The position numbers and the translations under genes were made by a program. Below are positions 2,929 through 19,905 of a DNA stretch of 23,959 nucleotides, in pieces; position 1 is the first letter of the stretch, and the number at the start of each line of letters is the position of its first letter. This DNA is from a virus. The notes below the pieces were generated by a model. The model had not been told where the DNA came from. It ran no database searches and saw only the letters and a list, made by a program, of their open reading frames with translations. The stretch lies in IMG/VR virus record IMGVR_UViG_3300024262_000243, positions 1 to 23,959 of that record, one strand, 5' to 3'.

Positions 2929-4788
2929 ATGGCTAAAAAAGGTTTTTCGATCTCCGATCTAGTCCTCCAAGCGGGACGCATGGATATTGCTGGTGTTGCC
3001 AACGATGAAGTGGCTGACATCATTGAATTCATTGAATCCGATTGGGGTTTGGGTCTCAATCTATACCCGGTTCAAAAGTTCATACTTAAAGTCTACTACG
3101 GGCTTCCTTTGGAAGACAAGATCAAGTGTGTACCCGCCCCGAAGGACTGGAGAAAGAAAAACGTCCCTCTACTAACAGAAGTTGAATACCTACAATTTCT
3201 GTATGATGATGGCCGGATCAATATTAGACCCGAAGACTACGTACCCGGTAAGGAAAGGGTGCAGTTGGTCTTGTCGGTGGGTCGTCGTTCTGGTAAGACC
3301 ATGATATCCGCATGTATTTCGGCGTATGAGACCTATCGCTTGATCTTGAAGGGTAACCCTCAAAAATACTATGCCATGGTCGAGGGTAAGGACATTCAAT
3401 TAATGTCCATCGCGACGGATAAGGATCAAGCGGGTCTCCTATATCAGGATGTGAGTACCCATTTCCAAAAATGTAAGTTTTTCCAACAGTACATGGCCAA
3501 CAATACTCTTTCCTACGCCAGATTCCAAACCCCGCAAGATATTGAAACCTTTGGTTCCTACCAAGAAAATGATAAGGCCCGTTCCTCTATCCGGGTCACC
3601 TTTAAATCTTGTATCGCAAAAGGTCTTCGTGGTGCCGCCAACTTGGTGGTTATTCTGGATGAGGTTGCACACTTTATCGACAAGGGGCAAAGTGGCGCGG
3701 AGGCCGTTTGGCAAGCCGTGGTACCTTCTACCCGTACCTTCAACCCTAAAGATGAAAACAACGAAGCCTGTGGTCCCCTAGAGTCCAAGGTCATACTAAT
3801 TTCTTCCCCCCTTGGTCGCCAAGGCATGTTCTATGACCAATTTCAAATGGGGATGAAGGGTGGTGATGCCGGTAATAGTATGCTTTGCGTACAGGCACCC
3901 ACCTGGGAAGTCAACCCCACTTTGGACCCCGATGTATTCGAACTGGATTATCTTAAAGACCCCGTTGCTTTCTTTACCGAATTCGGGGCCATGTTTTCGG
4001 ATCGTACCCGTGGTTGGTGGGAGAGGGAAGAGGATCTACTGATCTGTGTGAAACCCGAACTTTTTATCAAAAAAGCAGCACCCCCCCGCAAGCCCCACTT
4101 TATGGGAATCGACTTTGCACTTGCCCAAGATGGTACGGCTGTTGCGATAGGTCATGTAGGTGAAGGTGGTATCGTGGTGGCTGATTATGTAGACCAGATC
4201 AAAGCAGGGGTAGGTATTTACCAGGATAAGGAACGTTTGGAATTTGAAGATGTTGCCAACTGGATTTATCAGTTGTCACGAAGATTCTATATTACACATG
4301 GAATGTTTGACCAATGGGCTGGTATTATTTTTGAGCAAGCGTTGCACAACAAGGGTCTGACACAGATCAAAATGGCCAATCTGAACAAACAGATCAACTC
4401 CCAGATATACAAGAATTTTAAAGACCTTGCGTGGGAGGGCGGGTTACATTTATTCACCCCAGAGGAACCTGAGGATGAAGAGGAAATTACCTATATCGAG
4501 GAATTGCTTACCCTCCAGGCCGAATACCATTCTAAGTATATCACCACTGTCGAAGCACCCCGTGGGGGTCATGATGACCGTTCCGATGCATTAGTGCGTA
4601 TGGTGTGGCTGGCTTCACAACATCGTGGTAATCCAAACTACATATCATCCTATAATAATAGAAATGGTGGTGGTGGTAATAGGGGTGCCACTTCGGGTCA
4701 AGCTTCCTACCGTAAGACTCGAAAAAAAGCTATGCGGTCAGGAAGTCACCCCTCTAGACAAATACCCAGAGGTGGTAAATGGAGATGA
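2929..4788 (+). CDS. terL: Terminase large subunit (DNA packaging ATPase and nuclease)
   Basis: The motor that cuts concatemeric phage DNA and pumps it into the prohead through the portal. The 619-residue length is typical. The ATPase half shows a Walker A motif SVGRRSGKT (residues 116-124) and a Walker B with catalytic acid VVILDE (D244, E245). The RNase H-like nuclease half shows HFMGIDFALAQDGTA with D395, a second acidic strand near MFDQWAG, and GGHDDRSDAL with D549/D550 and D553 in the place of the last metal ligand. A Gly/Asn/Arg-rich, basic tail (about 565-619) is probably disordered and may contact the portal or DNA. The nearest purine-rich ribosome binding site (AAGGA, about 2910) is rather far from the ATG. 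Downstream are two small genes and the portal. Confidence 0.95.
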   Translation: MAKKGFSISDLVLQAGRMDIAGVANDEVADIIEFIESDWGLGLNLYPVQKFILKVYYGLPLEDKIKCVPAPKDWRKKNVPLLTEVEYLQFLYDDGRINIRPEDYVPGKERVQLVLSVGRRSGKTMISACISAYETYRLILKGNPQKYYAMVEGKDIQLMSIATDKDQAGLLYQDVSTHFQKCKFFQQYMANNTLSYARFQTPQDIETFGSYQENDKARSSIRVTFKSCIAKGLRGAANLVVILDEVAHFIDKGQSGAEAVWQAVVPSTRTFNPKDENNEACGPLESKVILISSPLGRQGMFYDQFQMGMKGGDAGNSMLCVQAPTWEVNPTLDPDVFELDYLKDPVAFFTEFGAMFSDRTRGWWEREEDLLICVKPELFIKKAAPPRKPHFMGIDFALAQDGTAVAIGHVGEGGIVVADYVDQIKAGVGIYQDKERLEFEDVANWIYQLSRRFYITHGMFDQWAGIIFEQALHNKGLTQIKMANLNKQINSQIYKNFKDLAWEGGLHLFTPEEPEDEEEITYIEELLTLQAEYHSKYITTVEAPRGGHDDRSDALVRMVWLASQHRGNPNYISSYNNRNGGGGNRGATSGQASYRKTRKKAMRSGSHPSRQIPRGGKWR

Positions 4789-5040: not shown

Positions 5041-5315
5041 GATCAACGTTGGCAAAATCGGATGCTGATAAAAATATTTCCTCCCTATTGTATGAAGCCG
5101 AGATGATTCTAACTAAGGCATTGATATTGTGTGACCAAGTGTCCAAAGAGGAATCCAATAAAATTGAGCAAAGAAGATCCCTAAGGGTGAAAAGTGACTT
5201 GCGAAAAGTTTTGGGTGCTATGGAAAAGGTACGGAGGATCACCCCTTCCTATGATATGGAAGATGAAGACCTGAAATTGATCCCCAAGAAAAAAGAACGA
5301 GTGACTAAAAAATGA
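5028..5315 (+). CDS. Small basic helical protein upstream of portal
   Basis: A 95-residue protein whose ATG lies 13 bases inside the preceding gene, with AAAGG about eight bases upstream. It is strongly helical and heptad-like (SSLLYEAEMILTKALILCD, then LRKVLGAMEKVRR), ending in a Lys/Arg-rich tail (KKKERVTKK). The stop overlaps the portal start as ATGA. It could be a small coiled-coil packaging factor; position next to terminase and portal would also allow it to be a small-terminase-type DNA-binding protein. No firm family. Confidence 0.65.
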   Translation: MGRLRSTLAKSDADKNISSLLYEAEMILTKALILCDQVSKEESNKIEQRRSLRVKSDLRKVLGAMEKVRRITPSYDMEDEDLKLIPKKKERVTKK

Positions 5316-7075
5316 GTACCAAAGGATTAGAGGAAGCCACAGAGGTGGCGAAGATAAAACGCGGTCCTCAATCAAAAGCGCAAATAGGAAAAACCAGTGG
5401 GAAACCCCGCAAGGTGAATGCCGCTTCTATGAGGTCTAAGGTGGCTTTTGGTGGTGGTAGTGGTGGTAGCTTTGGAAGCACGGGCATTGGAGGGGGTACC
5501 TCCATGGGTCAGGGGAGTAATATGTACTCCCCTGAATTGTCCACGGACTTTCTAGAGTTACCACAGTCGTTGGATGAAAGCCGAAACTTTTATCGTTTCT
5601 TCTATCAAAAAGATCCTTTTGTTGGTCGTGCCATTGATACCGCTGTAGAAGTACCCATGTCCAAATTACGGATGGGTATGCCACGGGTCAAACACATGAA
5701 GAATAGACCCGTAGCCCTGATGGCTCAGGAATTTTGTGAGAAGTGGGCTAAGAGGGTAAACCTCCTAGAAAAGCTTCTTTATATAGCACACGACTACCAC
5801 CTGATTGGTGAGGTTTTTGTTTTTTGCGAAGACAAATCACCCGATATGCCGGATCACATCACACATGACACCATTCGGGTTATGGATGGTGATGGCAATG
5901 TCACGGAAGAAAAAACAAAACGTGAAGATGCCGACGAACGTGCCATACGTTGGCTAAAAAAGAATTACAAGGGTTGGACTGACATACGTGTGTTGCCTCC
6001 TGAGCAAGTCCACATGCAATCCTGGCCACTGTCGGGTGAAAAACTATTTGAGTTTATCCCTGATTCCATGACCAAAGATGTTATTGCTCAAGCGTCGGCT
6101 GGGGATGAAGATGCCGCAAGGATCGTCGAATCTTTTTCCCCTGCCGTGGTGCAAGCTGTCATGGAAGGGAAAAATGTTAAACTTAACACGAATCCCGATG
6201 CGGGTTCGTTTGTCCATTATTTGGCAAACAAAAAATCCCAATACGAACCTAGGGGTCACTCCATATTAGAACGGTGTATGCGAGTTCTCGTATACCGCGA
6301 CAAATTAAGACAGGCCCAGTCATCTATTGCTTCCCGTCACATGACCCCCATGCGTTTGATTTGGGCAGAAGATGCCTCCGTGGGTGATATAGAAGATCTA
6401 AGAGAGCAAGTTGACCTTGCCTTGCAAGATCCAGATTACTCCATCATCACCAACTTCCAGGTCAACTGGGAAGAAATGGGTTCGGATCAAAGACTTCTAG
6501 ATTTGTCTGGTGAGTATGATATGACAGATCGCCAGTTGTACGCGGGTCTGGGTGTCACCGAAAGCTTACTGTCGGGTGAGTCTTCCTATTCGAATGACCG
6601 GATCAACCTGGAAGTGATCAATACCCGATATATGTTGTTTCGAGAAATCATGCAGGAATTTGTGGAACGCCGTTTGTTTGAACCTATGTGCCGTCGTATG
6701 GGTTATATTGAAGAGATAGAGGATGAATTTGGAGACATAGAGGAAGAGGTGTTGGTACCCTCCTTATCTTTTACACGACTGGCTTTGATGGATAACCAGG
6801 AAGCGTTCGACGCGATGTTCAACTTGTACCAAAAGGGTTCGTTGGATATAGATATCATTCTGGAACTTCTGAACATTGACCCTGTGTCCACTAGAGAAAA
6901 ACTGCTTCGGGATAAATGGACCATGAATGACCCCAACTTCAATGAAGTGTTACGTACCATTTATGGTGATGCTGGTCGAGCATTGGTGGAAGACTCCGAC
7001 GTCACCGCTAAGATTGCAGAGGAGTTGGGACTCAAGTACACCAAGAAAGAGGAAGGGGATAACCGTTTTGGATAA
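5312..7075 (+). CDS. Portal protein
   Basis: The dodecameric ring at the capsid vertex through which DNA enters and leaves, and the docking site for the terminase. The 587-residue length and pattern fit portal proteins. Features include an N-terminal basic region, a Gly/Ser-rich linker (about 46-70), then the conserved entry FYRFFYQKDPFVGRAIDTA (about 92-110). A long central clip/wing region is followed by PMRLIWAEDASVGDIEDLRE, LLSGESSYSNDRINLE and a helical C-terminal crown (REIMQEFVERRLFEPM). SGESSYSN within a helix-rich segment is typical of portal stem regions. It begins by an ATGA overlap with the previous gene. The C-terminal acidic patch (EEIEDEFGDIEEE) lies near the barrel region. Identity is by pattern and by genome position between terminase and protease. 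Confidence 0.88.
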   Translation: MSTKGLEEATEVAKIKRGPQSKAQIGKTSGKPRKVNAASMRSKVAFGGGSGGSFGSTGIGGGTSMGQGSNMYSPELSTDFLELPQSLDESRNFYRFFYQKDPFVGRAIDTAVEVPMSKLRMGMPRVKHMKNRPVALMAQEFCEKWAKRVNLLEKLLYIAHDYHLIGEVFVFCEDKSPDMPDHITHDTIRVMDGDGNVTEEKTKREDADERAIRWLKKNYKGWTDIRVLPPEQVHMQSWPLSGEKLFEFIPDSMTKDVIAQASAGDEDAARIVESFSPAVVQAVMEGKNVKLNTNPDAGSFVHYLANKKSQYEPRGHSILERCMRVLVYRDKLRQAQSSIASRHMTPMRLIWAEDASVGDIEDLREQVDLALQDPDYSIITNFQVNWEEMGSDQRLLDLSGEYDMTDRQLYAGLGVTESLLSGESSYSNDRINLEVINTRYMLFREIMQEFVERRLFEPMCRRMGYIEEIEDEFGDIEEEVLVPSLSFTRLALMDNQEAFDAMFNLYQKGSLDIDIILELLNIDPVSTREKLLRDKWTMNDPNFNEVLRTIYGDAGRALVEDSDVTAKIAEELGLKYTKKEEGDNRFG

Positions 7076-7129: not shown

Positions 7130-7753
7130 ATGTTGTATGTGATCCCTATCCTTGATCAGGTATACCAAATGAAACTTGTTACCCAAAAACAAATGGTGGC
7201 CGCTAAGAAATGGAAACCCACGGGCGATGGTACTCGTGTGGGTTTCTTTGTGCGATTGCCAGAAAACTTAGCCTCGCAATTTCCTTCGTTGGGTGACCAC
7301 GATGATTCTCCACCCCATATCACTTTTTTCAATATTGGTGACATCCCTAAAGATCGGCAAGAAGAATTCACCACACGGGTCAAGAATCTATTCCTGACTT
7401 TTAGGGGTCCGGTACATGCTTCATTGGGTCCTATAGATTATTTTGTCCATCCTGGTAAGGAACGTACGGTAGCTCACCTTGTGGTGCAATTCAACAAAAG
7501 CATTGCACAGTGGCGTTCTCGTTTGCATGATCTGGTCCTGGATATGGGATTATCCGTAGGCGACTTTAATCCCATGGTGTACAATCCACATGTCACACTA
7601 GAATACATGGATGGTTTGAATACCCAATTTACAGGTGAATTACCCAAAGGGCATTGGTCTTTCAACTCGGTGGAGATATGGGGCCTAAGTAAACCTCACA
7701 TTATACCTTTTGGTTTGGGTGCCGCAGTGCGTGTAGCTACCCACTGGGAAATC
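7130..7753 (+). other. 2H phosphoesterase domain (residues 1-208 of giant protein)
   Basis: Two HxT motifs about 90 residues apart, PHITFF at H63 and PHVTLEY at H154, each on a predicted beta strand, define the 2H superfamily, which opens 2',3'-cyclic or other cyclic phosphodiester bonds or acts on related nucleotides. The surrounding strands (GTRVGFFVRLP; SFNSVEIWGLS) fit the duplicated fold. Both His and both Thr are present, so the domain should be active. Substrate cannot be read. Families with this fold include RNA 2',3'-cyclic phosphodiesterases and the phage anti-CBASS enzyme Acb1; which is closest is unknown. Confidence 0.75.
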
Positions 7754-10700
7754 ATGAAACGGGTTGCCAGTAAATACCAGGACAAGATCAAAACGGACAA
7801 AGGTAATGTAATTTACCAATATGGTCCAAGGCAGGTAGCAGACCGCCATAAAAAAAAAGCTGAAAAGTTAGAAAAACTAAAGTCCTCCATAGGTAAATTG
7901 ACCTCTAAGGTCAAAAGAGACCTTAAATCCACAGACTCAAAAAAAAAACTCACCGCCCTGGCAGTGGCATTAATTAATGACACATATGAAAGGGTTGGGA
8001 ATGATGATTCCGCAGATGAAGGACATTTTGGGGTTACCGGTTGGTTGGTGGATCACATCAAATTCAATGGGAACGGTGCCAGTATTTCCTATGTGGGTAA
8101 ATCGGGTGTGTCCCACACCAAAAAGATAACCGACTCAACTTTAACTTCGGCCCTCAAAGATGTGTGTAAGGACTGCGACAAAGGGGGCCAAATTTTTAAT
8201 GGGGTTGGTGCTTCCGAAGTCAATGCCTACCTTAAAGAGTTTGAAATCACTGCTAAGGATCTACGTGGGTTTCATGCTAACCGTGAAATGTGCCGTGTGT
8301 TAAAAGAAAATCGCAAGAACGGTCCCACTTTGCCAAAATCCCGAAAAGAACGCGATAAGATCCTCAAAGAGGAATTCGCGAAGTCCCTGGATGAAGTGGC
8401 GCAAGTGGTGGGTCACGAAAAGGCTACCCTAAGATCCGATTATCTGGTCCCTGGTCTAGAAGATAGCTTCATGAAAGATGGGACGGTAATAGAGTCTTAT
8501 AAGAAAAAGACAGCAGCACTTCTACCAGTCATGAATCCTTTGTTTAACTTTCGCCAGATCGTCAAAGAGATTCTTCTCCTGGAGGATCATCTTGCTCACC
8601 CGGATATGCGATGCCCCGACTGCATCAATAAACACCTACTCAAAATAGAAGGGTACGCCGAAGAGGCTATTACGTTGGGGGGTGAACCCGAACTTATAGA
8701 CTTAGCAGATGGTGTGATCAGATCGGCTCGATCTTTCTTTTCTTTGTTCGGTATTGGGGTGGAGGAGGAAGAAGAGTGGTTGGATGTACAACAGGTTTTG
8801 CGCAAAACACGCAAGATTTTGTTACCCTATGCCCTACGGATCAAAGTGGCCACCAAAACACATGCTGAAAAAGAAGAAGAACAGGTAGAGAAAACCAAAC
8901 ATAAAAAACCAAAGTTGAGACCCCCCCGTAAGGACCTCCATAAAGACCGTATCCATGTGGATGATAATGACATGGATACGGGTGACCGTGGTGACGACAA
9001 AGATCTATCTTTGAACTATAAGCGGGTGGCCTCCCTATGGTCTTTTCGTAAGGCCACCCCTATGTCTTTAGCCCATAGGTTTATGGTCGCTGCCGCGAAA
9101 GAACCCGAACATGCCCCTGGTGATGTCTGGGAGACGGATGACGGCAATTGGAGAGCTAAGAACAAGAAGGGTGAGGGTAAGGGTGGTTTCGCCACAGAAG
9201 ACGCTGCTAAGGCATGGGTGAGTGGTAAGGCCCAAGACACAAAAGAAGATAAGGGTGAGGATAAGGATAAGGCTAAGGAGACGCCTGAGGAAACAATAGA
9301 AAAGGCCACCGACGAAGATATCGATAACGCCAAAAAAGAACAACAACGTTTGGAACTGGAAGATGCCATTAACGTTCGCGTGGAAAAAGAACGTAAAAAG
9401 GCTGAAAAATCAGGTGAGGACTTTGACGAGGATGCACTAAGAGAGAAGATCCACCAAAAGGGTTTGCAGTACCTCATTTCCAATATGAGCCTCAATGATA
9501 AAGAGAATAAAGAGAATCTTACTCCCGAGAACATGGAAAAAGTTCTGGATCAACATGTCCGGGAAGCATTAGAGGAAATTTCATCCGACTCAGAGGATCA
9601 AACCCAAGATAGTCCTACTCCCAAGATGGATAACAGGGTGCAGAGGGTCTTTCCTAAGGGTGACCCCGATGACAAACCCATTCGGATGCAAAGCTCTACA
9701 CAAAGATTGATTGCTGGTGTTGTGGGTGCCGCTAAGAATGTTTTAGGTGACGTGGTGGGTTCGGGTTCGGAACTACTACCCGATAAATCCAAAGATGTTA
9801 TCACCCAATGGTTTGAACAGGCGGGTACCGTTGAGTGGAATGATTTTTCGGAGGCATATTCCAAGGTAATTGATAACCTTGTTGATAGACACCTTAAGGG
9901 TGAGGTGGTAAACCCCGATGATCTAAATAAACCCCTGGGTAATTCCATACCGGAAATGGCAGAAGCGGTAGCCAAAGCGCGTTTCTTAGAAAAGTTTGAG
10001 GACATTGAGGATGCCTTGGAGGAAGATCGCAAGAAAGCGATTTCCAAAAAACTAAAGGCACTGGGACCAAAGATCCAAGGTCTCATAGAGGGTGGGTCCA
10101 AAGATACCGGGATGTCCAAGGAAGTGCAGGATGCTTTGTTGGATGCCTCTTTGGAGTTTGATGACACCCAACTCGAAAGACTTAGTGCTTCTATGGAAGG
10201 ACAACTCCGTCGTCTAAAAACCTACCGACCGGAAGCAGGGGAACCCTGGGATAAAACCACTATCAATTTGGCCCGTAAGTCTATTTCAGAGGGGATCTCC
10301 GGGGACACCCCGGATCAGATAGGTGAGTCTCTTGCCAATCTGTTATTTTCTGAAAAAGTGGTAATGAATCCTGAATTCGTGGGTAACCCCGCGATTCGTC
10401 AAAATTCCGAGTATGGGGAAGGCGAACCCACCTCGAAAAAGATAACCAGTAGAGCCAAAGCTAGTTTCAGACAGTATCAAACGATGTCCGAATTGGATAG
10501 GGTGGGTGCCTCTGAAAGGATTAAATCCCTACTTAAAAAAGAGAAAGACCCTGACTCCCCAAGGTCGTTGGAATTAGGTGCTGTGTTGGCGGGGATACAC
10601 TTGTCCCAAACACTTAATGGTGAAAAGTTAACGGGTACGGAACACCAACCTACAAGTTACTTCACAGAATTAGCCAAGGCTCTCAACAAAAAGGGTGATG

Positions 10701-12427
10701 CTGAACTTCTACTGGAGACCATGGAAGATTTTACCAGTGATAAGTCTAGGGAGATCATTGAGAATGCTATAGAGGGGATGAGTGACCAAGCACTTGCCAA
10801 CTTTGCAGGTGGTAAGGATGGCCCCTACGGTGCCTTGGCAGAGGCACTTTCGGATGGTAGCACCCTTCACTGGGATCAAAAAAGACAGGTACATAGTATT
10901 TTGTCGAGTTTGCTCACACATCGTATGACCTACGGTTATTCAGTTATTCACGATATGTACAGTGCTGTATCGGAAAAGGCAGATAATGGGGAAACACCCA
11001 AAGTTGATATGGAAGACTTTGGTAGTGTTTTTGACGAAAAGATGAATCAATGGAATCAAAAAAATCGATTTGATAATGACCGGTATTTTGATGATGATAG
11101 TATTTTGAATGTGGATGTTGACAGTCCCGATTTTGATGTGGATAAGTGGAAAAAAGAGATCCAGCAAGAAATGATGGGACAACAGAATCAATCACTTTTG
11201 GATTGGGCTGACAGTATATATGGTGGCAGACCCCCAAAAGGGGAATCCCCTGCCTATGAGTACATGGCACAAGCACAGCGGGATCAGAAATTTGACAACC
11301 TAAGTCAAAAGACGGACCCCCCTTTGCGGAAAACCGCAATGAACAATTTTCAATCTTCCTTCAATAAAAGCCACCATATATGTAATGGGGAAGTCTACCC
11401 CGTAGATAATTGTGGCAATAGCAGGTCACGGAGGTTTCTGATGGCACGTATTAGTAAAAAAGGTGCAAAAAGCGTAGTTGCCCAACTCGAACGGGTAGCC
11501 GAACTTTTTCAAACGGAACATGAAACATTGGGGATCAACGAGAAAGCAGCTTTAGATTTTGCTTACCGATGTGATCTTCTTTCCGATGTAATCGAAAAAA
11601 ACGCGGGTTTTGAAAAAGAATCCCTATCCGAGTTTGACCCGGTTAAAGAACAGGGTTTTAACCCAGAAGAAATCGGTAAAGAGGATTCCGGTCCTCTTCA
11701 AAAAGAACCCGATGAAGCGTACATGAATAGCCAATTTTCCCAACAGGAAAATCGTGAACTTCGTGAACGTCAAGAGTCGGGTGAAATTGAAAAAACCAAA
11801 GAAGGCAACCCAATTTTGGATGAACAAAATCCTCAATCAGGTAAGCAAGCTTTGGATCAATCCCTGGATACCTTGACCCGTATGGCTCAAGAGGAAGGAA
11901 GTTCTGTTACTCAGTTGAGTAACATGTCGGACACAATGCGTTTGTGTTTGGCTAAACTTCAAAATATCCCCTCTGGACCTGCAAGTGATCTTGCCAAGAA
12001 ATTATCTTCCAGTGTCCAAACACACCTCACAGCATTTACCAAAGTGCGTGATGGATTGATTGATACGGAAGCCTTGGGTGTCCCCTTGGATGTTATGAAA
12101 GAAGCGGCATTGGGTCGTCTTCTTCGTGCGTCTGGTGAAGTAATGCCACACCTCAAAGAGTTGTTGTCGGAACTTCGCGTGGGTGCCACTTCTGATAGTC
12201 CTACTGCTCAACTTAACTTGCAAGACCTCCTCGATGTCAAATCGGGACGTATTGCCAAACTCATGTCCTTGAGTGCTAAGATCGTGTCCGATGCGGCTTC
12301 TGATTTTGGCAAAAAAGAAGTTGAGGTGGTTGAAAAAAAGGCATCCGAAGAAAATGCACCCGAAGAAAAGGTGGCTTCTGTGGTCCCCCCCGCTGTTTTT
12401 GGTCATGGGTTTGATTTGTACGAATAA
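7130..12427 (+). CDS. Giant multidomain head-module protein: 2H phosphoesterase + topoisomerase IB + long helical tail
   Basis: A 1,765-codon uninterrupted frame. Residues about 30-208 form a 2H phosphoesterase (LigT/CPDase-like) with PHITFF (H63, T65) and PHVTLEY (H154, T156). Residues about 209-460 form a type IB topoisomerase catalytic domain: R288 in ERVGN, K324 in VGKSG, R379 in AKDLRGFHAN, H429 in VVGHE and nucleophile Y438 in RSDYLVPG. H to Y is nine residues, as in vaccinia enzyme (H265, Y274). Residues about 475-515 hold LLLEDHLAHPDMRCPDCINK (C495, C498), a probable metal or helical module. A charged linker, a small WETDDGNWRAKN motif (about 667-678) and about 1,000 mostly helical, acidic residues follow. 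A start at 7169 with AGG eight bases upstream is an alternative to ATG 7130, which has no clear ribosome binding site. The product may be processed or may be a fusion of formerly separate genes. Confidence 0.85.
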   Translation: MLYVIPILDQVYQMKLVTQKQMVAAKKWKPTGDGTRVGFFVRLPENLASQFPSLGDHDDSPPHITFFNIGDIPKDRQEEFTTRVKNLFLTFRGPVHASLGPIDYFVHPGKERTVAHLVVQFNKSIAQWRSRLHDLVLDMGLSVGDFNPMVYNPHVTLEYMDGLNTQFTGELPKGHWSFNSVEIWGLSKPHIIPFGLGAAVRVATHWEIMKRVASKYQDKIKTDKGNVIYQYGPRQVADRHKKKAEKLEKLKSSIGKLTSKVKRDLKSTDSKKKLTALAVALINDTYERVGNDDSADEGHFGVTGWLVDHIKFNGNGASISYVGKSGVSHTKKITDSTLTSALKDVCKDCDKGGQIFNGVGASEVNAYLKEFEITAKDLRGFHANREMCRVLKENRKNGPTLPKSRKERDKILKEEFAKSLDEVAQVVGHEKATLRSDYLVPGLEDSFMKDGTVIESYKKKTAALLPVMNPLFNFRQIVKEILLLEDHLAHPDMRCPDCINKHLLKIEGYAEEAITLGGEPELIDLADGVIRSARSFFSLFGIGVEEEEEWLDVQQVLRKTRKILLPYALRIKVATKTHAEKEEEQVEKTKHKKPKLRPPRKDLHKDRIHVDDNDMDTGDRGDDKDLSLNYKRVASLWSFRKATPMSLAHRFMVAAAKEPEHAPGDVWETDDGNWRAKNKKGEGKGGFATEDAAKAWVSGKAQDTKEDKGEDKDKAKETPEETIEKATDEDIDNAKKEQQRLELEDAINVRVEKERKKAEKSGEDFDEDALREKIHQKGLQYLISNMSLNDKENKENLTPENMEKVLDQHVREALEEISSDSEDQTQDSPTPKMDNRVQRVFPKGDPDDKPIRMQSSTQRLIAGVVGAAKNVLGDVVGSGSELLPDKSKDVITQWFEQAGTVEWNDFSEAYSKVIDNLVDRHLKGEVVNPDDLNKPLGNSIPEMAEAVAKARFLEKFEDIEDALEEDRKKAISKKLKALGPKIQGLIEGGSKDTGMSKEVQDALLDASLEFDDTQLERLSASMEGQLRRLKTYRPEAGEPWDKTTINLARKSISEGISGDTPDQIGESLANLLFSEKVVMNPEFVGNPAIRQNSEYGEGEPTSKKITSRAKASFRQYQTMSELDRVGASERIKSLLKKEKDPDSPRSLELGAVLAGIHLSQTLNGEKLTGTEHQPTSYFTELAKALNKKGDAELLLETMEDFTSDKSREIIENAIEGMSDQALANFAGGKDGPYGALAEALSDGSTLHWDQKRQVHSILSSLLTHRMTYGYSVIHDMYSAVSEKADNGETPKVDMEDFGSVFDEKMNQWNQKNRFDNDRYFDDDSILNVDVDSPDFDVDKWKKEIQQEMMGQQNQSLLDWADSIYGGRPPKGESPAYEYMAQAQRDQKFDNLSQKTDPPLRKTAMNNFQSSFNKSHHICNGEVYPVDNCGNSRSRRFLMARISKKGAKSVVAQLERVAELFQTEHETLGINEKAALDFAYRCDLLSDVIEKNAGFEKESLSEFDPVKEQGFNPEEIGKEDSGPLQKEPDEAYMNSQFSQQENRELRERQESGEIEKTKEGNPILDEQNPQSGKQALDQSLDTLTRMAQEEGSSVTQLSNMSDTMRLCLAKLQNIPSGPASDLAKKLSSSVQTHLTAFTKVRDGLIDTEALGVPLDVMKEAALGRLLRASGEVMPHLKELLSELRVGATSDSPTAQLNLQDLLDVKSGRIAKLMSLSAKIVSDAASDFGKKEVEVVEKKASEENAPEEKVASVVPPAVFGHGFDLYE
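7754..8509 (+). other. Type IB topoisomerase domain (about residues 209-460 of giant protein)
   Basis: The segment opens with MKRVASKYQ, which looks like an ancestral start codon context, then YQYGPRQVADRHKKKAEKL as in the N-terminal helix region of bacterial and poxvirus topoisomerase IB. The five catalytic residues R288, K324, R379, H429 and Y438 are all present with spacings of 36, 55, 50 and 9 residues, close to those of the vaccinia enzyme. These enzymes nick one strand through a 3'-phosphotyrosine and relax supercoils without ATP. The fold is shared with tyrosine recombinases, but ERVGN, GKSG and SDYLVPG point to topoisomerase. The N-terminal DNA-clamp domain of classical enzymes seems to be absent or replaced by the 2H domain. 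Confidence 0.85.
11430..11443 (+). promoter_or_regulatory. Internal ribosome binding site and in-frame ATG
   Basis: GGAGG (11430-11434) followed by six bases and ATG at 11441, in frame with the giant ORF at residue 1438. Translation from here would give a separate 329-residue protein starting MARISKKGAKSVVAQ. This is a better ribosome binding site than that of the giant ORF itself. The segment just upstream (ICNGEVYPVDNC) may be the end of an earlier unit. Confidence 0.5.
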
Positions 12428-13055: not shown

Positions 13056-14465
13056 ATGGCATTCATGAAATATGCACGTGGTAAACTCGTCCACCCCTCT
13101 TTTGAAGTAGGGGCATGGGACAAAGTGCGTGTGGGGTCATTGAAAGGCCGTGTCTCGGACAACCTTATTGAACAGGCAAGCGAGATTTTTCAAAAGCCTT
13201 TTGATACCAAAAACTATCTTTTGTCTCATGTATCCATAGTGGCATCTGTGGATACCATGGAGGTACCCACCAAAAAAGTGGGTTCCTTTGTAGAAAATGG
13301 ACAGAAGATCAATAGGAAGTACCCAAACTTTCGGGTTACTCCAGAAACACAACCTTGGATTAACAACAATAACGACGGGTGGTCTCGTGAAGTCCTTATG
13401 AGTTCGTACCGGACTTTTATTGGGGCCCAAAACTTTCAAGAACATGTTCAATTGGAGGAACATTCCAAGGGACGCATTATAGATGCAGCGGCCCGTGATA
13501 TTGGACCTTCGGTGTACATTGATATCTTGGTAGCCACTGATCGAAAACATCGTGAATTGGTTTCCGCAATCCAAAATGGCACCATGTCTACTTTGTCCAT
13601 GGGCTGCTCTATAGACTTTTCCCAGTGTACCAAATGTGGTCATGTGGCAGCGGATGAAACCGAAATGTGCGGACACATTAAATACGAGAAAGGGAACATC
13701 TTTTATGATGAATCCGGTAATCGTCAAAAGGTGGCAGAACTTTGTGGTCATGAATCCCATGGTGATACCGCTGGTGTTACTTTCATAGAGGGTTCCTGGG
13801 TGGCGACCCCTGCATTTACGGGTGCCGTCCTACGAAACATTTTGAACCCCGATAACTTCAACAATGAAACATTGAAACAGGCACAAATGATCTTGTCCCG
13901 GCCCCCTGAACCTTGGGGTGATGGTTTTGTCAATGTGAAAACGGGAAGTCATTACTCTAATGATAGGGTTTCGGGTGACTTTGATTTTGATGAGGGTGGG
14001 GGTGACGAAGAGGCACCTCCTAAAGAAAAAGAAACCAGTCCTTTCAAGGAAATGGAAGAATCGGTTTACAAAGATGTTTTGGATCGTGTTCAAAAACGAT
14101 TAAAAAAAGACATCAACAAAGATGAAATCGACAACGCTCTAACACCTGAGAATTCAACGGCATCTCCCAATGATACCTTGATTAAACAGGCTTCCATGTA
14201 CCGTTCTGCGCTACATGCTTTAATAAAAACTTCAAATTCTGATGCAGAATTTATCAATAAACTGTCGCAATACAATGGGGAGGTTGGTATTTCAATTCCG
14301 GTTGAAATCTACCGTGCCTCGTTAACACTTGGTTCCCAGGATAAACATGAATCCTTGGATCAATTTTTGAAGTCCTGTCGCAATGTTTTGGGTAGACGCC
14401 CATCGGTGTCCGAGCAAAAGACATTAATTCGATTGGCAAAACTCTTAACTCTTATTAAGGAGTAA
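13056..14465 (+). CDS. Prohead protease with zinc-finger-like insert and extended C-terminus
   Basis: The serine protease that processes scaffold and capsid proteins during prohead maturation (HK97-type S78 or related herpesvirus-assemblin-like fold). The core is about residues 50-270. H130 in NFQEHVQ and S181 in STLSMGC stand where the catalytic His and Ser of this family lie, and GRIIDAAARDIG followed by VYIDILVATDRKHRELV matches the central strands and helix. Right after the Ser comes C191-x2-C194-G-H196 and C205-G-H207, then another CGH near residue 230: a metal-binding insert not present in classical members. The C-terminus (about 305-469) is acidic then helical and could be a scaffold-like or self-cleaved tail. 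Its neighbours are the scaffold and capsid genes, in the usual order. GAGG at about 13043 precedes the ATG. Confidence 0.82.
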   Translation: MAFMKYARGKLVHPSFEVGAWDKVRVGSLKGRVSDNLIEQASEIFQKPFDTKNYLLSHVSIVASVDTMEVPTKKVGSFVENGQKINRKYPNFRVTPETQPWINNNNDGWSREVLMSSYRTFIGAQNFQEHVQLEEHSKGRIIDAAARDIGPSVYIDILVATDRKHRELVSAIQNGTMSTLSMGCSIDFSQCTKCGHVAADETEMCGHIKYEKGNIFYDESGNRQKVAELCGHESHGDTAGVTFIEGSWVATPAFTGAVLRNILNPDNFNNETLKQAQMILSRPPEPWGDGFVNVKTGSHYSNDRVSGDFDFDEGGGDEEAPPKEKETSPFKEMEESVYKDVLDRVQKRLKKDINKDEIDNALTPENSTASPNDTLIKQASMYRSALHALIKTSNSDAEFINKLSQYNGEVGISIPVEIYRASLTLGSQDKHESLDQFLKSCRNVLGRRPSVSEQKTLIRLAKLLTLIKE

Positions 14466-14467
14466 CT

Positions 14468-15925
14468 ATGTCAAGAAAACGATTGACGGATAATCGCAAG
14501 GCGTCTGCCCCACCCGCAACACCAGGGTACCTGGAGTATTGGCAGAAAAAGGATGAGATTCATCCCGCTGCCACTCAACAAGATCCAGGGGCCCATGACT
14601 ATGAGAATGGGGACACTTCGTCTTGGGCAGAAGACCCACACCCTGGTCCCTATGCACAGGGACCACACCCTGCAACACCTTGGGAAGGTCCAGCTAACCC
14701 CCAAACTACCAAACCTGATCACAATCAGGGCGTCACTCTTTCCCCCTATACTTCCGAAAACGGTGGTGCCGGGAAACAAGCGATTGAGAAAAAAGCGGCC
14801 CGTTGTGTCCGTATTGCTTCTCAAATGCTAGGTAAAGAGGCTTCCCCTCAAGCTATCGAAGATCAAGCATTGTCATTGATGGATCTTCCCAACGCCACTA
14901 TTGAGGACACCTTACGTCGTATGAACGCGGGTGGATTCATGGTAGGTAACGGTTGCGACTCCTATGATGAACTCGACTATTTGGTCGAGGATGAATCCTA
15001 TGGTGATGACCCTTACGGGGAAGATGACCTCTTGGAAGATAGTATGTCCGATATGAGCATGTATGCCAACGTGGATCACATGGCCTCACAGGATCGGTTT
15101 GCTACCCTCGAAAAAGAACTCCATCGTTTGCATGGTGAAATCGCTATGCTACGTAAACAGGCCGAAGATCAAAATGATCCCGATGCCTATGAGTTTGGAG
15201 ACACCCAGGAAGTTTCTAAATCCGCTATGCATGGCGACATGTACAGCATGGATGACGAAATGGATGACCTCCTGCTTGCCCAGATGATGGAAGAAATGGG
15301 CAGCGATGATGAAGACGAAGACGAAGACGATGCCCAGATGGCCGCTATGCTCAAAGAAATGAGCATGGAGGAAGAAGGGGATATGTACGGCATGGAAGAA
15401 GAGATGAGAATGCTTCAAGCCATGATCCAAGAATCCCAATCGTCCAAACAAGCGGGTGAAGAAGAAGAAGAGGAAGAGGAGGAAGAGTCTGAGGAAGAAG
15501 AATCCAAGGAAGAAGATTCTGAGGAAGAATCCGAAGAATCCGATAAGGAAGCTTCTATGATTCTGGCAGAAGACCCCATGGGTGATCTTCTCAATGACAA
15601 CTCCTATGACCTCAATGGGGATCAATTCCTTTCTCAGCTATACACCGATAAGTTCGCTTCCGAAGATGAAGACGAAGACGATGAGGAAGAAAAAGAGGCT
15701 GCTAAGAAATCGGCCAAAAAAGCCGAAGAAGATGAAGAGGAAGAAATCGAATTGGAAGAAAAGGCCAGCAATAAAAAAGCAAGCCTTAAACCCAAAGCAC
15801 GTCTGGCAAGCAACGGTGCCACCACTTTGGGACAAGTTTCCAGAGTAGCCTCGGATCAAAACAGCATTGATGGACTATCCAAACTTTGGGAATCTTCCCC
15901 CGACGTTACCGGTGTCTTCAAATAA
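14468..15925 (+). CDS. Acidic scaffold-like protein
   Basis: A 485-residue protein with AAGGAG six bases before ATG 14468, the site lying in the end of the protease gene. The N-terminus is Pro-rich (residues about 10-95, with SWAEDPHPGPYAQGPHPATP). Residues about 105-165 look like a helical repeat. From about 170 on it is extremely acidic, with long Asp/Glu runs (for example EEEEEEEEESEEEES near residue 333) and Met-rich helices. The C-terminus is KLWESSPDVTGVF. Placement between protease and capsid genes, strong acidity and helical low-complexity composition fit an internal scaffolding or core protein that is degraded during maturation. No sequence signature proves this. Confidence 0.65.
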   Translation: MSRKRLTDNRKASAPPATPGYLEYWQKKDEIHPAATQQDPGAHDYENGDTSSWAEDPHPGPYAQGPHPATPWEGPANPQTTKPDHNQGVTLSPYTSENGGAGKQAIEKKAARCVRIASQMLGKEASPQAIEDQALSLMDLPNATIEDTLRRMNAGGFMVGNGCDSYDELDYLVEDESYGDDPYGEDDLLEDSMSDMSMYANVDHMASQDRFATLEKELHRLHGEIAMLRKQAEDQNDPDAYEFGDTQEVSKSAMHGDMYSMDDEMDDLLLAQMMEEMGSDDEDEDEDDAQMAAMLKEMSMEEEGDMYGMEEEMRMLQAMIQESQSSKQAGEEEEEEEEEESEEEESKEEDSEEESEESDKEASMILAEDPMGDLLNDNSYDLNGDQFLSQLYTDKFASEDEDEDDEEEKEAAKKSAKKAEEDEEEEIELEEKASNKKASLKPKARLASNGATTLGQVSRVASDQNSIDGLSKLWESSPDVTGVFK

Positions 15926-16104: not shown

Positions 16105-16779
16105 ATGTCTCTACTTGGACAGGCGAGCGGTGGTTGGACTGAAAGTTCTTCGGCATTGAGATTACTCTATGTTGGAGTTAGAAACTCTGTGGGTGTCCTC
16201 ACCCCTGATTCTTTCACACAGTCCAATCCCCCCATCGTCACAACCGCTGGAACTATTTCGGCACAAGTGGATACCTTGGTTTCTGGGATTCTTTCCGGTG
16301 CCATTGCATTCACCCGCCCAGATGTGGGATCGAACTTTATCGGCGGTAACGTCGAAACCTTGGCTGTCGCAGGTCAAGAAACTTTGGTTCGACCACTCGG
16401 CTGTTTTATCAACAATGCCAACGGTAATGCCTTCGAAAACCTTCCCGGACAAGCTTCCGGTAAGGGTCCTTATGTTTCTTCCCAAGGAACATTCGGCAAT
16501 GGTCTCTTTGAGACCCAAGTTCTTGATGGCACCGCAATTACCGGTTTTGCCACGGGTGATGCATTCACTTATGTAACAGGTGTGGAGCTACATGCTTCCC
16601 GCAATGGTTACCTGATGCCAGCCGGTGCAATCGATGGTGGTGGTACTTTCCGATCCTTCCTAAACGCTGCAAACTCTGCGGAATTGGAACACGGTCTTGC
16701 TGCTTCAACAGTCATCGGCATCCTCAAAATGCCCGCTGATAGTGTCATGAACGAACTCGTTTATGACCAACGAATTTAA
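16105..16779 (+). CDS. Probable capsid decoration or minor head protein
   Basis: A 224-residue protein immediately before the major capsid gene, with GAGGAGA at 16091-16097. The sequence is Gly/Ala/Thr/Ser-rich, low in Lys, with alternating hydrophobic residues (GTISAQVDTLVSGILSG; GDAFTYVTGVELHASRNG), typical of an extended beta structural protein. Codon choice is enriched in preferred codons like its capsid neighbour, which suggests high expression. Small proteins placed just before the major capsid gene are commonly head-stabilising or decoration proteins; lambda gpD is an example of position, not of sequence. Confidence 0.6.
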   Translation: MSLLGQASGGWTESSSALRLLYVGVRNSVGVLTPDSFTQSNPPIVTTAGTISAQVDTLVSGILSGAIAFTRPDVGSNFIGGNVETLAVAGQETLVRPLGCFINNANGNAFENLPGQASGKGPYVSSQGTFGNGLFETQVLDGTAITGFATGDAFTYVTGVELHASRNGYLMPAGAIDGGGTFRSFLNAANSAELEHGLAASTVIGILKMPADSVMNELVYDQRI

Positions 16780-16792
16780 GGAGGGGATAACG

Positions 16793-17668
16793 ATGAGTAC
16801 CGTATCGAACGCTACAAAGCAAAAGATCATTGGAGATCTAATCAAAACCCCTCAAGGTCGTGCCAAACTTGCTGCGTCTATGACACAGCCCTTGAGAACC
16901 CGCAGAGACTACACTTCGGTAGGTCGTAAGACCTTTCTCGTAGAGCAATTGCCTGATGGCGCGTTGCCCATCTACGATAAAGATCCCGACGTAACCGCAT
17001 ACATCGTGGGCGAAGAAGGCGAGAACATTCTTGCCGTCACCAAACCACGTCGTGTGGTATTCCCTCTGTTCGAGATTGCATCGAATCCAGAGATTCCTTT
17101 GACACAGATCAAAGAGCGACGTTTCGACTTGATCGAAAGGGCCCAAGATCTTGCTCGGGCCCAAATCCAAGCTGCCGAAGACGAACGTGTCTTCGCAGTG
17201 CTGGACGCGATTGCCGTCAACGGTTTCGATAGCATCGCTGGACAAACCAACCCCGACATCCCTGTTGTTGCTCCCATTTCGGGTGCAGTTCTGGCAGATG
17301 CTTTTGCGGAAATTGAGCGTCACGACCTTCGTGTTGCCCGTATTTTCATGAACGCCACTGACTATGCTGACATTCGTAAATTCGGTCGCGACATCCTGGA
17401 TATCGAATCCCAAGCAGTGTTGCTGAAAACTGGTCTTCAAGCCACCCTTTGGGGGGCCCAGATCATCACTTCACGTTTGGTTCCAGTTGGTACGGTCTAT
17501 GTATGCTGCGAACCCGAAATGTTTGGTCGCATCCCAGTTCGTACAGAACTCACCGTTTTGTCGGCAGACGATCCAAAAGCCCGTACTATCGGCTTTTCCG
17601 TCTTCGAGAACCTGGGTATCGGCGCGTACAACCCCCGTGGTCTTACCCGCCTCGTGATCACTCGATAA
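16793..17668 (+). CDS. Major capsid protein
   Basis: A 291-residue protein. ATG 16793 with AAGGAGGGG at 16778-16786 is chosen over an ATG 30 bases upstream, which lies inside the previous gene and lacks a ribosome binding site. The pattern fits an HK97-fold shell protein: a basic N-terminal arm (about 1-45), an extended loop region (PDGALPIYDKDPDVTAYIVG), then a long spine-like helix rich in charged residues (RFDLIERAQDLARAQIQAAEDERVF split by short turns, about 103-127). Alternating A-domain strands and helices follow (ARIFMNATDYADIRKFG; LWGAQIITSRLVPVGTVYVC), with C-terminal beta strands (TIGFSVFENLGIGAYNP). It follows protease, scaffold and decoration genes, as expected. Confidence 0.85.
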   Translation: MSTVSNATKQKIIGDLIKTPQGRAKLAASMTQPLRTRRDYTSVGRKTFLVEQLPDGALPIYDKDPDVTAYIVGEEGENILAVTKPRRVVFPLFEIASNPEIPLTQIKERRFDLIERAQDLARAQIQAAEDERVFAVLDAIAVNGFDSIAGQTNPDIPVVAPISGAVLADAFAEIERHDLRVARIFMNATDYADIRKFGRDILDIESQAVLLKTGLQATLWGAQIITSRLVPVGTVYVCCEPEMFGRIPVRTELTVLSADDPKARTIGFSVFENLGIGAYNPRGLTRLVITR

Positions 17669-18299: not shown

Positions 18300-18572
18300 A
18301 TGCCCCAAAGATATAACCACCTTGCGAAAACTGATTACCCCGTATCCGGTTGGGAACCTGACCTACAAGAGGTTGTGGTGGCCGAATGGAAGCCTATTCA
18401 AAACCAAAGTGACGTTAATTTGGTCATTTGCCATTATGAAGATGATGGGTGGGAGTTGGTGACGGTGACGTGTGTTGCTACGGGATATACTGATATGGTG
18501 GGTGTCCCCACCATGAAGTGGTGTGTTTACTTCAAACGCCCCGTCGAATCTGAACTTGAAGAAAAGGATTGA
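18300..18572 (+). CDS. DUF4177-like small protein
   Basis: A 90-residue protein with GGAG six bases before the ATG. The central part, VAEWKPIQNQS, then DVNLVICHYEDDGWELVTVT and a final strand KWCVYFKRP, fits the DUF4177-type pattern in which a helix ends in GWELV and is followed by a strand and a terminal F-K/R motif. Function of that family is unknown. Charged C-terminal tail (ESELEEKD). It ends four bases before the CoaB-like gene, so the two are probably one operon preceded by the structured leader. Confidence 0.6.
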   Translation: MPQRYNHLAKTDYPVSGWEPDLQEVVVAEWKPIQNQSDVNLVICHYEDDGWELVTVTCVATGYTDMVGVPTMKWCVYFKRPVESELEEKD

Positions 18573-18576
18573 TTTC

Positions 18577-19905
18577 ATGAAAGATCGATTTTATGTGATA
18601 TCAGGGGGTACTATGGTCCATGTGGCCCCCCATTTTAGTCTGTGTTCACCCGCTTACGGTACTGTGGGGAACTCCCTGGTACGGGGGTTGTCACTCTATG
18701 CTGGGGGTCAGGATAGCGTTCATCTGATTCCCACCCGTATGGTGAACACCCCCTTCCAGGTAGATGGCCATGTAGACCACCTCTTGGATATCTTGGATTT
18801 GAAATTCATAGAAACCAACGAAGATGTGTCCCGGTTGGTGGACCTCTTGGTATCTCGCGAAGAGACTCGTTGCATCGTGATGGCTTGCGCCTTGTGTGAT
18901 TTTGAACCCCGTAAGATATCTTGGATTGAGGAAGGTCCCTACAATTTTAAAAGCCTTCGGTCTTTTGGGAAAGATCAACCCCGTCTCTCTTCCAAATACC
19001 GCCCCCAAATGGATCTGATACCTACCGATAAGTTGATCGGGAAGATCCGTAAAAACCGAAAAGACATATTTTTGGTGGGGTTCAAAACCACAGCGGGTGA
19101 ATCTCCCAAATCCCTTTACGACAAGGGTCTCAAACTCTTGAAAGACAATTCCTGCAATTTGGTCTTGGGTAACGATATTCAAACCCACCTCAATATGATC
19201 ATCACACCGGAAGAGTTTCCATATACCTTTGTGGGCGGCAAGGGTAGGGATGAAGCTATTGACCAATTGTGTGAAATGGTAATCCAGCGGACTAAACTCT
19301 CTTTTTCCAAAACAGAGGTGACAGGGACACCCGATCAAAAAATCCTTCCTGCTACCGCAGAGGGTATCCCGGAAAACTTTGTTCCAGTGCTACGATTCCT
19401 TATTGAAAATAATGCCTTCAAGTTGGTCAATGGTAGGACCACGGGTCATTTTGGTTGTGTATACCCAGAGGGTAGTTTATCTTCTGTTAGGTATGCCAAT
19501 CACAACAAGGTTTTCGAAGAGGGTATGGTTCGGGTAACTGGTACCAAAGATGGAGTGATCCAGGCTATTGGTTCTAAGCCTTCGGCGGGGGAACATACCC
19601 AACAGGAGATCTATCGTCAATTGGGGGATAGGGTACATTCGGTGGTACACTTCCATTGCCCCTTGAGTAAAGGTATCATCCTACCCATGGCCTCACAGAA
19701 GCCATTTGAGTGCGGTTCCCATCAGTGTGCTACCAACACGGTCAACGCTATGGAGGAATTGTCTCCAGGGGTCTATGTGTGCCACCTGGAGGGGCATGGT
19801 CCAAACATTGCCTTTCACAAAGATGTACCCGCATATACTCTTATTTTCATGATTCGGAAGTTTTGGGATTTGTCAAAGGGTCTTTCCGATCACCTGGAGG
19901 ATTAG
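18577..19905 (+). CDS. CoaB-like (phosphopantothenoylcysteine synthetase) / class II aldolase-like fusion enzyme
   Basis: ATG 18577 with AAAAGGA at 18562-18568 gives 442 residues; upstream in-frame ATG overlaps the previous gene. Residues about 1-235 resemble the CoaB half of DFP/CoaBC, which joins phosphopantothenate and cysteine in coenzyme A synthesis: SGGT (9-12) for nucleotide binding, LVGFKTTAGES (166-) in the place of CoaB VGFxAET, and GNDI (198-201) in the place of AND(V). Residues about 265-442 resemble the class II aldolase/adducin fold with HFH (H358, H360) and HLEGH (H403, H407) as likely metal ligands. CoaB alone is usually fused to CoaC, not to an aldolase. The arrangement suggests an auxiliary metabolic enzyme or a repurposed nucleotide-dependent enzyme; substrates are unknown. 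Confidence 0.72.
   Translation: MKDRFYVISGGTMVHVAPHFSLCSPAYGTVGNSLVRGLSLYAGGQDSVHLIPTRMVNTPFQVDGHVDHLLDILDLKFIETNEDVSRLVDLLVSREETRCIVMACALCDFEPRKISWIEEGPYNFKSLRSFGKDQPRLSSKYRPQMDLIPTDKLIGKIRKNRKDIFLVGFKTTAGESPKSLYDKGLKLLKDNSCNLVLGNDIQTHLNMIITPEEFPYTFVGGKGRDEAIDQLCEMVIQRTKLSFSKTEVTGTPDQKILPATAEGIPENFVPVLRFLIENNAFKLVNGRTTGHFGCVYPEGSLSSVRYANHNKVFEEGMVRVTGTKDGVIQAIGSKPSAGEHTQQEIYRQLGDRVHSVVHFHCPLSKGIILPMASQKPFECGSHQCATNTVNAMEELSPGVYVCHLEGHGPNIAFHKDVPAYTLIFMIRKFWDLSKGLSDHLED

Follow-up and report, generated by a model that had tools for sequence, protein, structure and literature searches.

The analysed DNA is a virus record of 23,959 bases (hereafter the window, meaning this whole stretch) that carries a tailed-phage head module. 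Matches to PHROGs support the order TerL, portal, giant ORF, protease and major head protein, with an acidic protein after the protease (Table 1); the earlier note had set the giant ORF between portal and protease, in the head module and not in a replication region, and this placement is upheld by the PHROGs matches and recurs in most relatives. By its head genes, the closest named relative is LR745208.1, a metagenomic huge phage of 485 kb (60% identity in the portal and 89% in the MCP). The corresponding values are 34 and 48% for Tunturiibacter phage Tunturi_5 and 26 and 40% for Bacillus phage G. An Rfam scan of the window gave no match. Outside the head genes, an ORF upstream of the terminase (597-1718) has an N-terminal ferritin/Dps-like domain (phrog_3636, 8.7e-9), and an ORF just past them (18523-19905) has a CoaB-type DFP domain (PF04127, 2.5e-5), with a class II aldolase domain also apparent by eye.

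Table 1. Features of the head module and of the giant ORF (positions in the window)
Feature	Position	Strand	Basis
Terminase large subunit (TerL)	2929..4788	+	phrog_17415, 1.6e-12
Portal protein	5312..7075	+	phrog_16240, 9.5e-31
Giant multidomain ORF, 1765 aa, portal/head protease interval	7130..12427	+	ORF call; neighbours by PHROGs
2H phosphoesterase (LigT-like) domain, residues about 36-196	7235..7717	+	fold search
Candidate motif RVAT, 2H/topoisomerase border	7730..7741	+	motif scan; inferred
Topoisomerase IB catalytic core, cap-less (compact core, residues 215-445, 7772-8464)	7754..8509	+	PF01028, PDB matches, AF2
Candidate motif RVAS, just before topoisomerase core	7760..7771	+	motif scan; inferred
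Catalytic Arg288	7991..7993	+	aligned to variola 2h7f; invariant 47/47
Catalytic Lys324	8099..8101	+	aligned to variola 2h7f; invariant 47/47
Catalytic Arg379	8264..8266	+	aligned to variola 2h7f; invariant 47/47
Catalytic His429	8414..8416	+	aligned to variola 2h7f; invariant 47/47
Predicted nucleophile Tyr438	8441..8443	+	aligned to variola 2h7f; invariant 47/47
Candidate motif KTAA, topoisomerase/LLEDHL border	8507..8518	+	motif scan; inferred
Inserted LLEDHL..RC.DCI.KH domain, residues about 464-569	8519..8836	+	comparison with relatives
Candidate motif KVAT, LLEDHL/constant element border	8843..8854	+	motif scan; inferred
Constant post-portal element, residues 574-640 (ATKT.AEKEDE...PPRKDL...DKDLSLNYK.VA)	8849..9049	+	conservation in relatives
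Candidate motif RVAS, end of constant element	9023..9034	+	motif scan; inferred
Candidate motif KTAM	11330..11341	+	motif scan; inferred
C-terminal segment, residues about 1427-1574	11408..11851	+	counterpart is its own ORF in most relatives; part of the giant ORF here
Candidate motif RVAE	11492..11503	+	motif scan; inferred
Candidate motif KVAS, near C-terminus	12368..12379	+	motif scan; inferred
Head maturation protease	13056..14465	+	phrog_18299, 6.4e-13
Acidic, low-complexity protein (scaffold-like), [KR]xA[AS]-rich	14468..15925	+	motif counts
Major head protein (MCP)	16763..17668	+	phrog_2522, 3.6e-51; 39.5% identity to Bacillus phage G gp27

The start of the giant ORF is uncertain, the ATG at 7130 having no clear ribosome site and a second in-frame ATG lying at 7169. 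Its product holds at least two unrelated enzymatic domains in one polypeptide, 2H and topoisomerase IB, and relatives carry more enzymes. The 2H domain matches the folds of Deinococcus CPDase (5h7e, 1.1e-6) and E. coli LigT (5ldm, 8e-6); the Pfam LigT_PEase match is weak here (0.11), and relatives reach E=2e-13 with 2_5_RNA_ligase2. A HAD-type domain replaces 2H in two relatives, L002 (HAD_SAK_1, 3.7e-22) and, by eye, L003. Searching the giant protein against NCBIfam returned no match. The LLEDHL domain, fused after the core here, is in several relatives a separate ORF of ~150 aa just past the portal, and because both it and the C-terminal segment are separate ORFs in relatives, neighbouring cistrons of the head module appear to be fused in the giant protein. 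Another phage ORF, of 2040 aa (Rctr197k_173; L004:2835-8954), has a C-terminal 2H-like region with 28.9% identity to the N terminus of the window protein and is apparently another polyvalent protein.

The Topoisomerase IB Core

Residues 215-445 of the giant protein are a type IB topoisomerase catalytic core, for which we infer relaxation activity. Pfam PF01028 (Topoisom_I) matched residues 239-434 at E=2.7e-26, its score of 92.8 bits exceeding the curated cut-off of 23.7, and the tyrosine-recombinase profile Phage_integrase (PF00589) gave no match up to E=1. The best sequence matches in the PDB were all topoisomerase IB, and the matches comprised the Deinococcus enzyme (4e-11), 6z01 DNA topoisomerase I (2e-9), variola topoisomerase (1.5e-7) and eukaryotic top1. 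AlphaFold2 (AF2) models were confident, with a mean pLDDT of 86.3 for residues 1-470 and 89.4 for residues 204-460, and the modelled core had its nearest fold in the topoisomerase of variola (E=3.5e-13, TM 0.74) and lay far from the recombinases, the best of which, XerH, gave E=1.4e-3 and TM 0.41. A chance match to topoisomerase is ruled out by the E-value, the fold and the invariance of the active site. Five catalytic residues had been read from the sequence in the earlier note, and in a phmmer alignment R288, K324, R379, H429 and Y438 indeed line up, in that order, with the active-site R, K, R, H and Y of variola 2h7f; all five are unchanged in 47 of 47 distinct phage relatives. The nine-residue spacing of His and Tyr, as in the poxvirus enzyme, was also found as described, and residues 209 and 460, between which the domain had been placed, do begin at base 7754 and end at base 8509.

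The same note called the enzyme complete, which is too strong, as it has no N-terminal cap. The alignments to the variola and Deinococcus enzymes do not begin until residues 64 and 72, respectively, of those proteins. The Pfam family Top1B_N_bact (PF21338) was found in 4 of 4 bacterial enzymes and was absent from the window protein and from two stand-alone phage relatives (L007 and L014); neither is it listed for the 22 giant relatives. In the stand-alone phage versions merely 18-62 residues precede the core, counted from the upstream stop codon. The window domain is thus, by sequence, a catalytic core without its cap, and since the cap is missing, DNA clamping and activity may be weak.

Distribution among Relatives

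Viral loci were retrieved by a topoisomerase search (42 loci) and by an independent portal search (35 loci), the former favouring loci that carry the domain. There are 49 distinct loci with the domain, mostly on huge-phage contigs, of which 36 have it on the portal-protease side, 7 between terL and portal and 6 elsewhere (one locus, L008, was placed by hand). In the seven terL-portal loci the topoisomerase is a stand-alone gene. One of the six others has the domain about 4 kb from an MCP gene, and L012 and L032 have it about 150 kb from the portal, near Dam-type methylase, RNase H-type and ThyX-like genes. PF01028 matched 21 of 22 giant relatives, and 17 of 19 records, the largest of 619 kb and some possibly incomplete, had no second match to it; type IIA (PF00521) and type IA (PF01131) topoisomerases were not found in 20 records, which may likewise be incomplete.

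A search with a trimmed HMM found no topoisomerase in the neighbourhood at about half of the portal-anchored loci, which refutes an initial result, obtained with an HMM that included flanking segments, of a topoisomerase in every portal relative. Apparent duplicated topoisomerase fragments in L037 and L038 proved to be weak noise matches. The domain is absent from the two relatives that are named isolates, Bacillus phage G and Tunturi_5. In a tree made by a quick method, with long branches flagged, the phage domains group together (SH-aLRT 98), separated by a long stem from the 27 bacterial sequences included.

Several loci showed peculiarities of their own. One phage (L057, record G005) has two divergent PF01028 genes far from its head module (47920-48537 and 89311-89913) and a post-portal protein without a topoisomerase domain. 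Two contigs of the phage clade, L090 and L091, were binned into bacterial assemblies (an actinomycetotal MAG and an unclassified MAG). Portal ORFs of about 1000-1170 aa occur in L022 (record G023, 171605-174904), L038, L080 and L081, the portal match in G023 being split in two by about 1.6 kb; inteins or insertions in the portal genes are the likely cause.

A Constant Element with Variable Cargo

The charged, conserved element at residues 574-640 follows the portal with or without a topoisomerase. It lies in the topoisomerase's own ORF at 33 of 36 portal-side loci, in the ORF after the portal in phages with a stand-alone topoisomerase, and in 13 of 17 portal loci that have no topoisomerase, the remaining four being on contigs that end soon past the portal. 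The modules N-terminal to it vary and include topoisomerase, 2H, CCA-type nucleotidyltransferase, GNAT, InPase, HAD (HAD_SAK) and others, with a CCA/poly(A) polymerase head domain in 10 of the 22 giants. In one 2808-aa post-portal protein (L020:5132-13555) a LAGLIDADG intein interrupts the CCA/poly(A)-polymerase head domain. At the level of sequence, the topoisomerase is variable cargo N-terminal to a constant element. Such a constant element with exchangeable enzymes is the pattern that would be expected of a head-loaded protein, by analogy with the polyvalent proteins (PMC5512222).

A Candidate Processing Motif

The motif [KR]xA recurs at the domain borders of the giant protein (Table 1). 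In a motif spotted post hoc, among related sequences whose counts are not independent and therefore inflated, [KR][VTIL]A was depleted inside the topoisomerase core (4 observed against 42.7 expected from shuffling) and enriched in the 40-aa N-flank of the topoisomerase (39 against 8.8), in the 2H C-flank (20 against 4.1) and in the LLEDHL C-flank (16 against 2.4). The string RVAAKY may simply represent a helix belonging to the structure of the topoisomerase domain. The variant [KR][VTI]A was depleted in TerL (32 against 52), and non-head ORFs were neutral for [KR][VTIL]A (56 against 54.5). The acidic-protein family had 139 occurrences of [KR][VTIL]A against 42.7 expected; for [KR]xA[AS] the window's acidic protein had 10 against 0.72, and its family of 35 members 267 against 56.8. 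An unbiased residue-pair scan of this family also ranked K/R two residues before A, and the pair A-S, high. Large phages are known to cut head proteins at short motifs, as SPN3US does at AXE (PMC10052503), so that a prohead-protease site at [KR]xA is plausible at these borders, and the acidic protein is possibly a scaffold destroyed by the protease.

Discussion

The reading that we consider most likely, and hold with moderate confidence, is that an active topoisomerase IB is packaged in the head and co-ejected as part of a polyvalent protein of phage G-like huge phages. The giant protein would be made together with the late head proteins and enter the procapsid by way of its constant post-portal segment. 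The prohead protease would then trim or cut it at the [KR]xA domain borders, freeing 2H, topoisomerase and other pieces, and the topoisomerase would be retained in the head until it was co-ejected with the DNA. There it would nick and rejoin one strand, needing neither ATP nor metal, and so remove supercoils from the incoming, first-transcribed genome of a phage with no other detectable topoisomerase. Fold, the five catalytic residues, gene order, the pattern of constant element and cargo and the distribution of the motif are observed directly in sequence and model; it is head entry, cleavage, co-ejection and relaxation that we infer. Once packaged, the cargo may act on the genome after ejection, on host DNA or already in the procapsid.

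Several points count against a head-packaged enzyme: its absence from phage G and Tunturi_5, its placement in L012 and L032, the missing cap and the post-hoc nature of the motif. In the literature searched we also found no virion proteomics for the phage G-like clade and no paper on phage G virions; the Tunturi paper makes no mention of mass spectrometry, and the text of the PaBG structural-proteome section names no topoisomerase. A fuller version, which we advance tentatively, as possible rather than probable, is that huge tailed phages related to phage G carry a protease-released, cap-less topoisomerase IB in the head and deliver it with the genome, the enzyme being loaded by means of a constant element to which exchangeable modules can be joined, as an independent counterpart of the poxvirus virion topoisomerase.

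The strongest competitor, although unlikely, is a replication or transcription topoisomerase that is encoded late or in the head operon, works inside the cell and never enters the virion. Replication could depend on it, since most of these genomes yielded no other topoisomerase, and the copies in L012 and L032 do lie in a DNA-metabolism neighbourhood. However, the great majority of portal-side copies are covalently joined to the constant element, the co-fused 2H, CCA and GNAT domains are typical of packaged polyvalent proteins (PMC5512222), and even the stand-alone copies still prefer the slot between terL and portal.

It is less probable again that the enzyme relieves torsion or untangles DNA in the procapsid while the motor is filling a very large head, the packaging part of the role in packaging or ejection that the earlier note suggested. 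Its position by terminase and portal and the very large genomes would suit such a role, which is weakened because close portal relatives package without a nearby topoisomerase domain and Bacillus phage G, with no PF01028 match at all, packages 498 kb; the fused cargo domains, moreover, have no packaging logic. A catalytically dead or purely DNA-binding domain that holds or condenses DNA within the head is very improbable: the missing cap is in keeping with it, and basic DNA-binding internal head proteins are known in other phages, but an invariant pentad in all the relatives compared is unexpected for a mere DNA binder. Identity as a tyrosine recombinase, which shares the catalytic fold and brought XerH into the fold search, can be dismissed on the much closer variola fold, the lack of a Phage_integrase match up to the threshold given above and best sequence matches that are all topoisomerase IB.

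The constant element with its variable enzymes looks like a natural protein-loading system for a very large phage head, and the cap-less core is a minimal topoisomerase IB lineage that is biochemically worth study. In the literature searched we found no earlier description of a topoisomerase in a phage head. If true, the head-packaged reading bears on how a genome of 200-600 kb copes with supercoiling during the first minutes of infection, and with a candidate cleavage motif in hand, head loading can be tested directly by virion proteomics.

Comparison with Known Systems

Polyvalent phage proteins are encoded next to the portal (Iyer et al. 2017, PMC5512222) and resemble the window protein as multidomain giants beside portal or terminase with a 2H domain; InPase and GNAT are carried by relatives of the window. 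That paper does not name topoisomerase IB as one of the domains; the word topoisomerase occurs in its reference list only. Precedents for head proteins include the prohead protease and ejected head proteins of SPN3US (PMC10052503, PMC5694885) and the Dar proteins of P1 (PMC12810830). As is proposed for the cargo here, the T4 internal proteins and Alt, P1 Dar and the SPN3US E proteins are made along with the head, many of them processed by a prohead protease and several co-ejected, but their known processing motifs differ (AXE in SPN3US, PMC10052503) and none is described there with a topoisomerase.

Among phage enzymes, the topoisomerase I of PaBG, Motura and related jumbo phages (PMC7824862) shares the catalytic fold (BFVD matches of 2.5e-10 and 2.8e-9), and the PaBG gene lies about 4 kb from the MCP gene. 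Unlike the window protein, these enzymes stand alone at 541-562 aa, have no fused 2H or head element, are 29% identical over part of their length and form a distant long branch in the tree. Deinococcus-type bacterial topoisomerase IB has the PF01028 catalytic domain in common with the phage core, to which it is 23-30% identical, but carries the Top1B_N_bact cap, and the Deinococcus enzyme has Asn at the position aligned with His429, which the window protein keeps.

Virions of vaccinia virus contain its topoisomerase IB, which aids early transcription. The poxvirus (variola/vaccinia) enzyme is the best fold match to the phage core and shares its five residues and His-Tyr spacing, although it is a stand-alone protein of 314 aa with an N-terminal cap and only about 21% identity. 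We regard it as a possible functional parallel, with no claim of shared ancestry.
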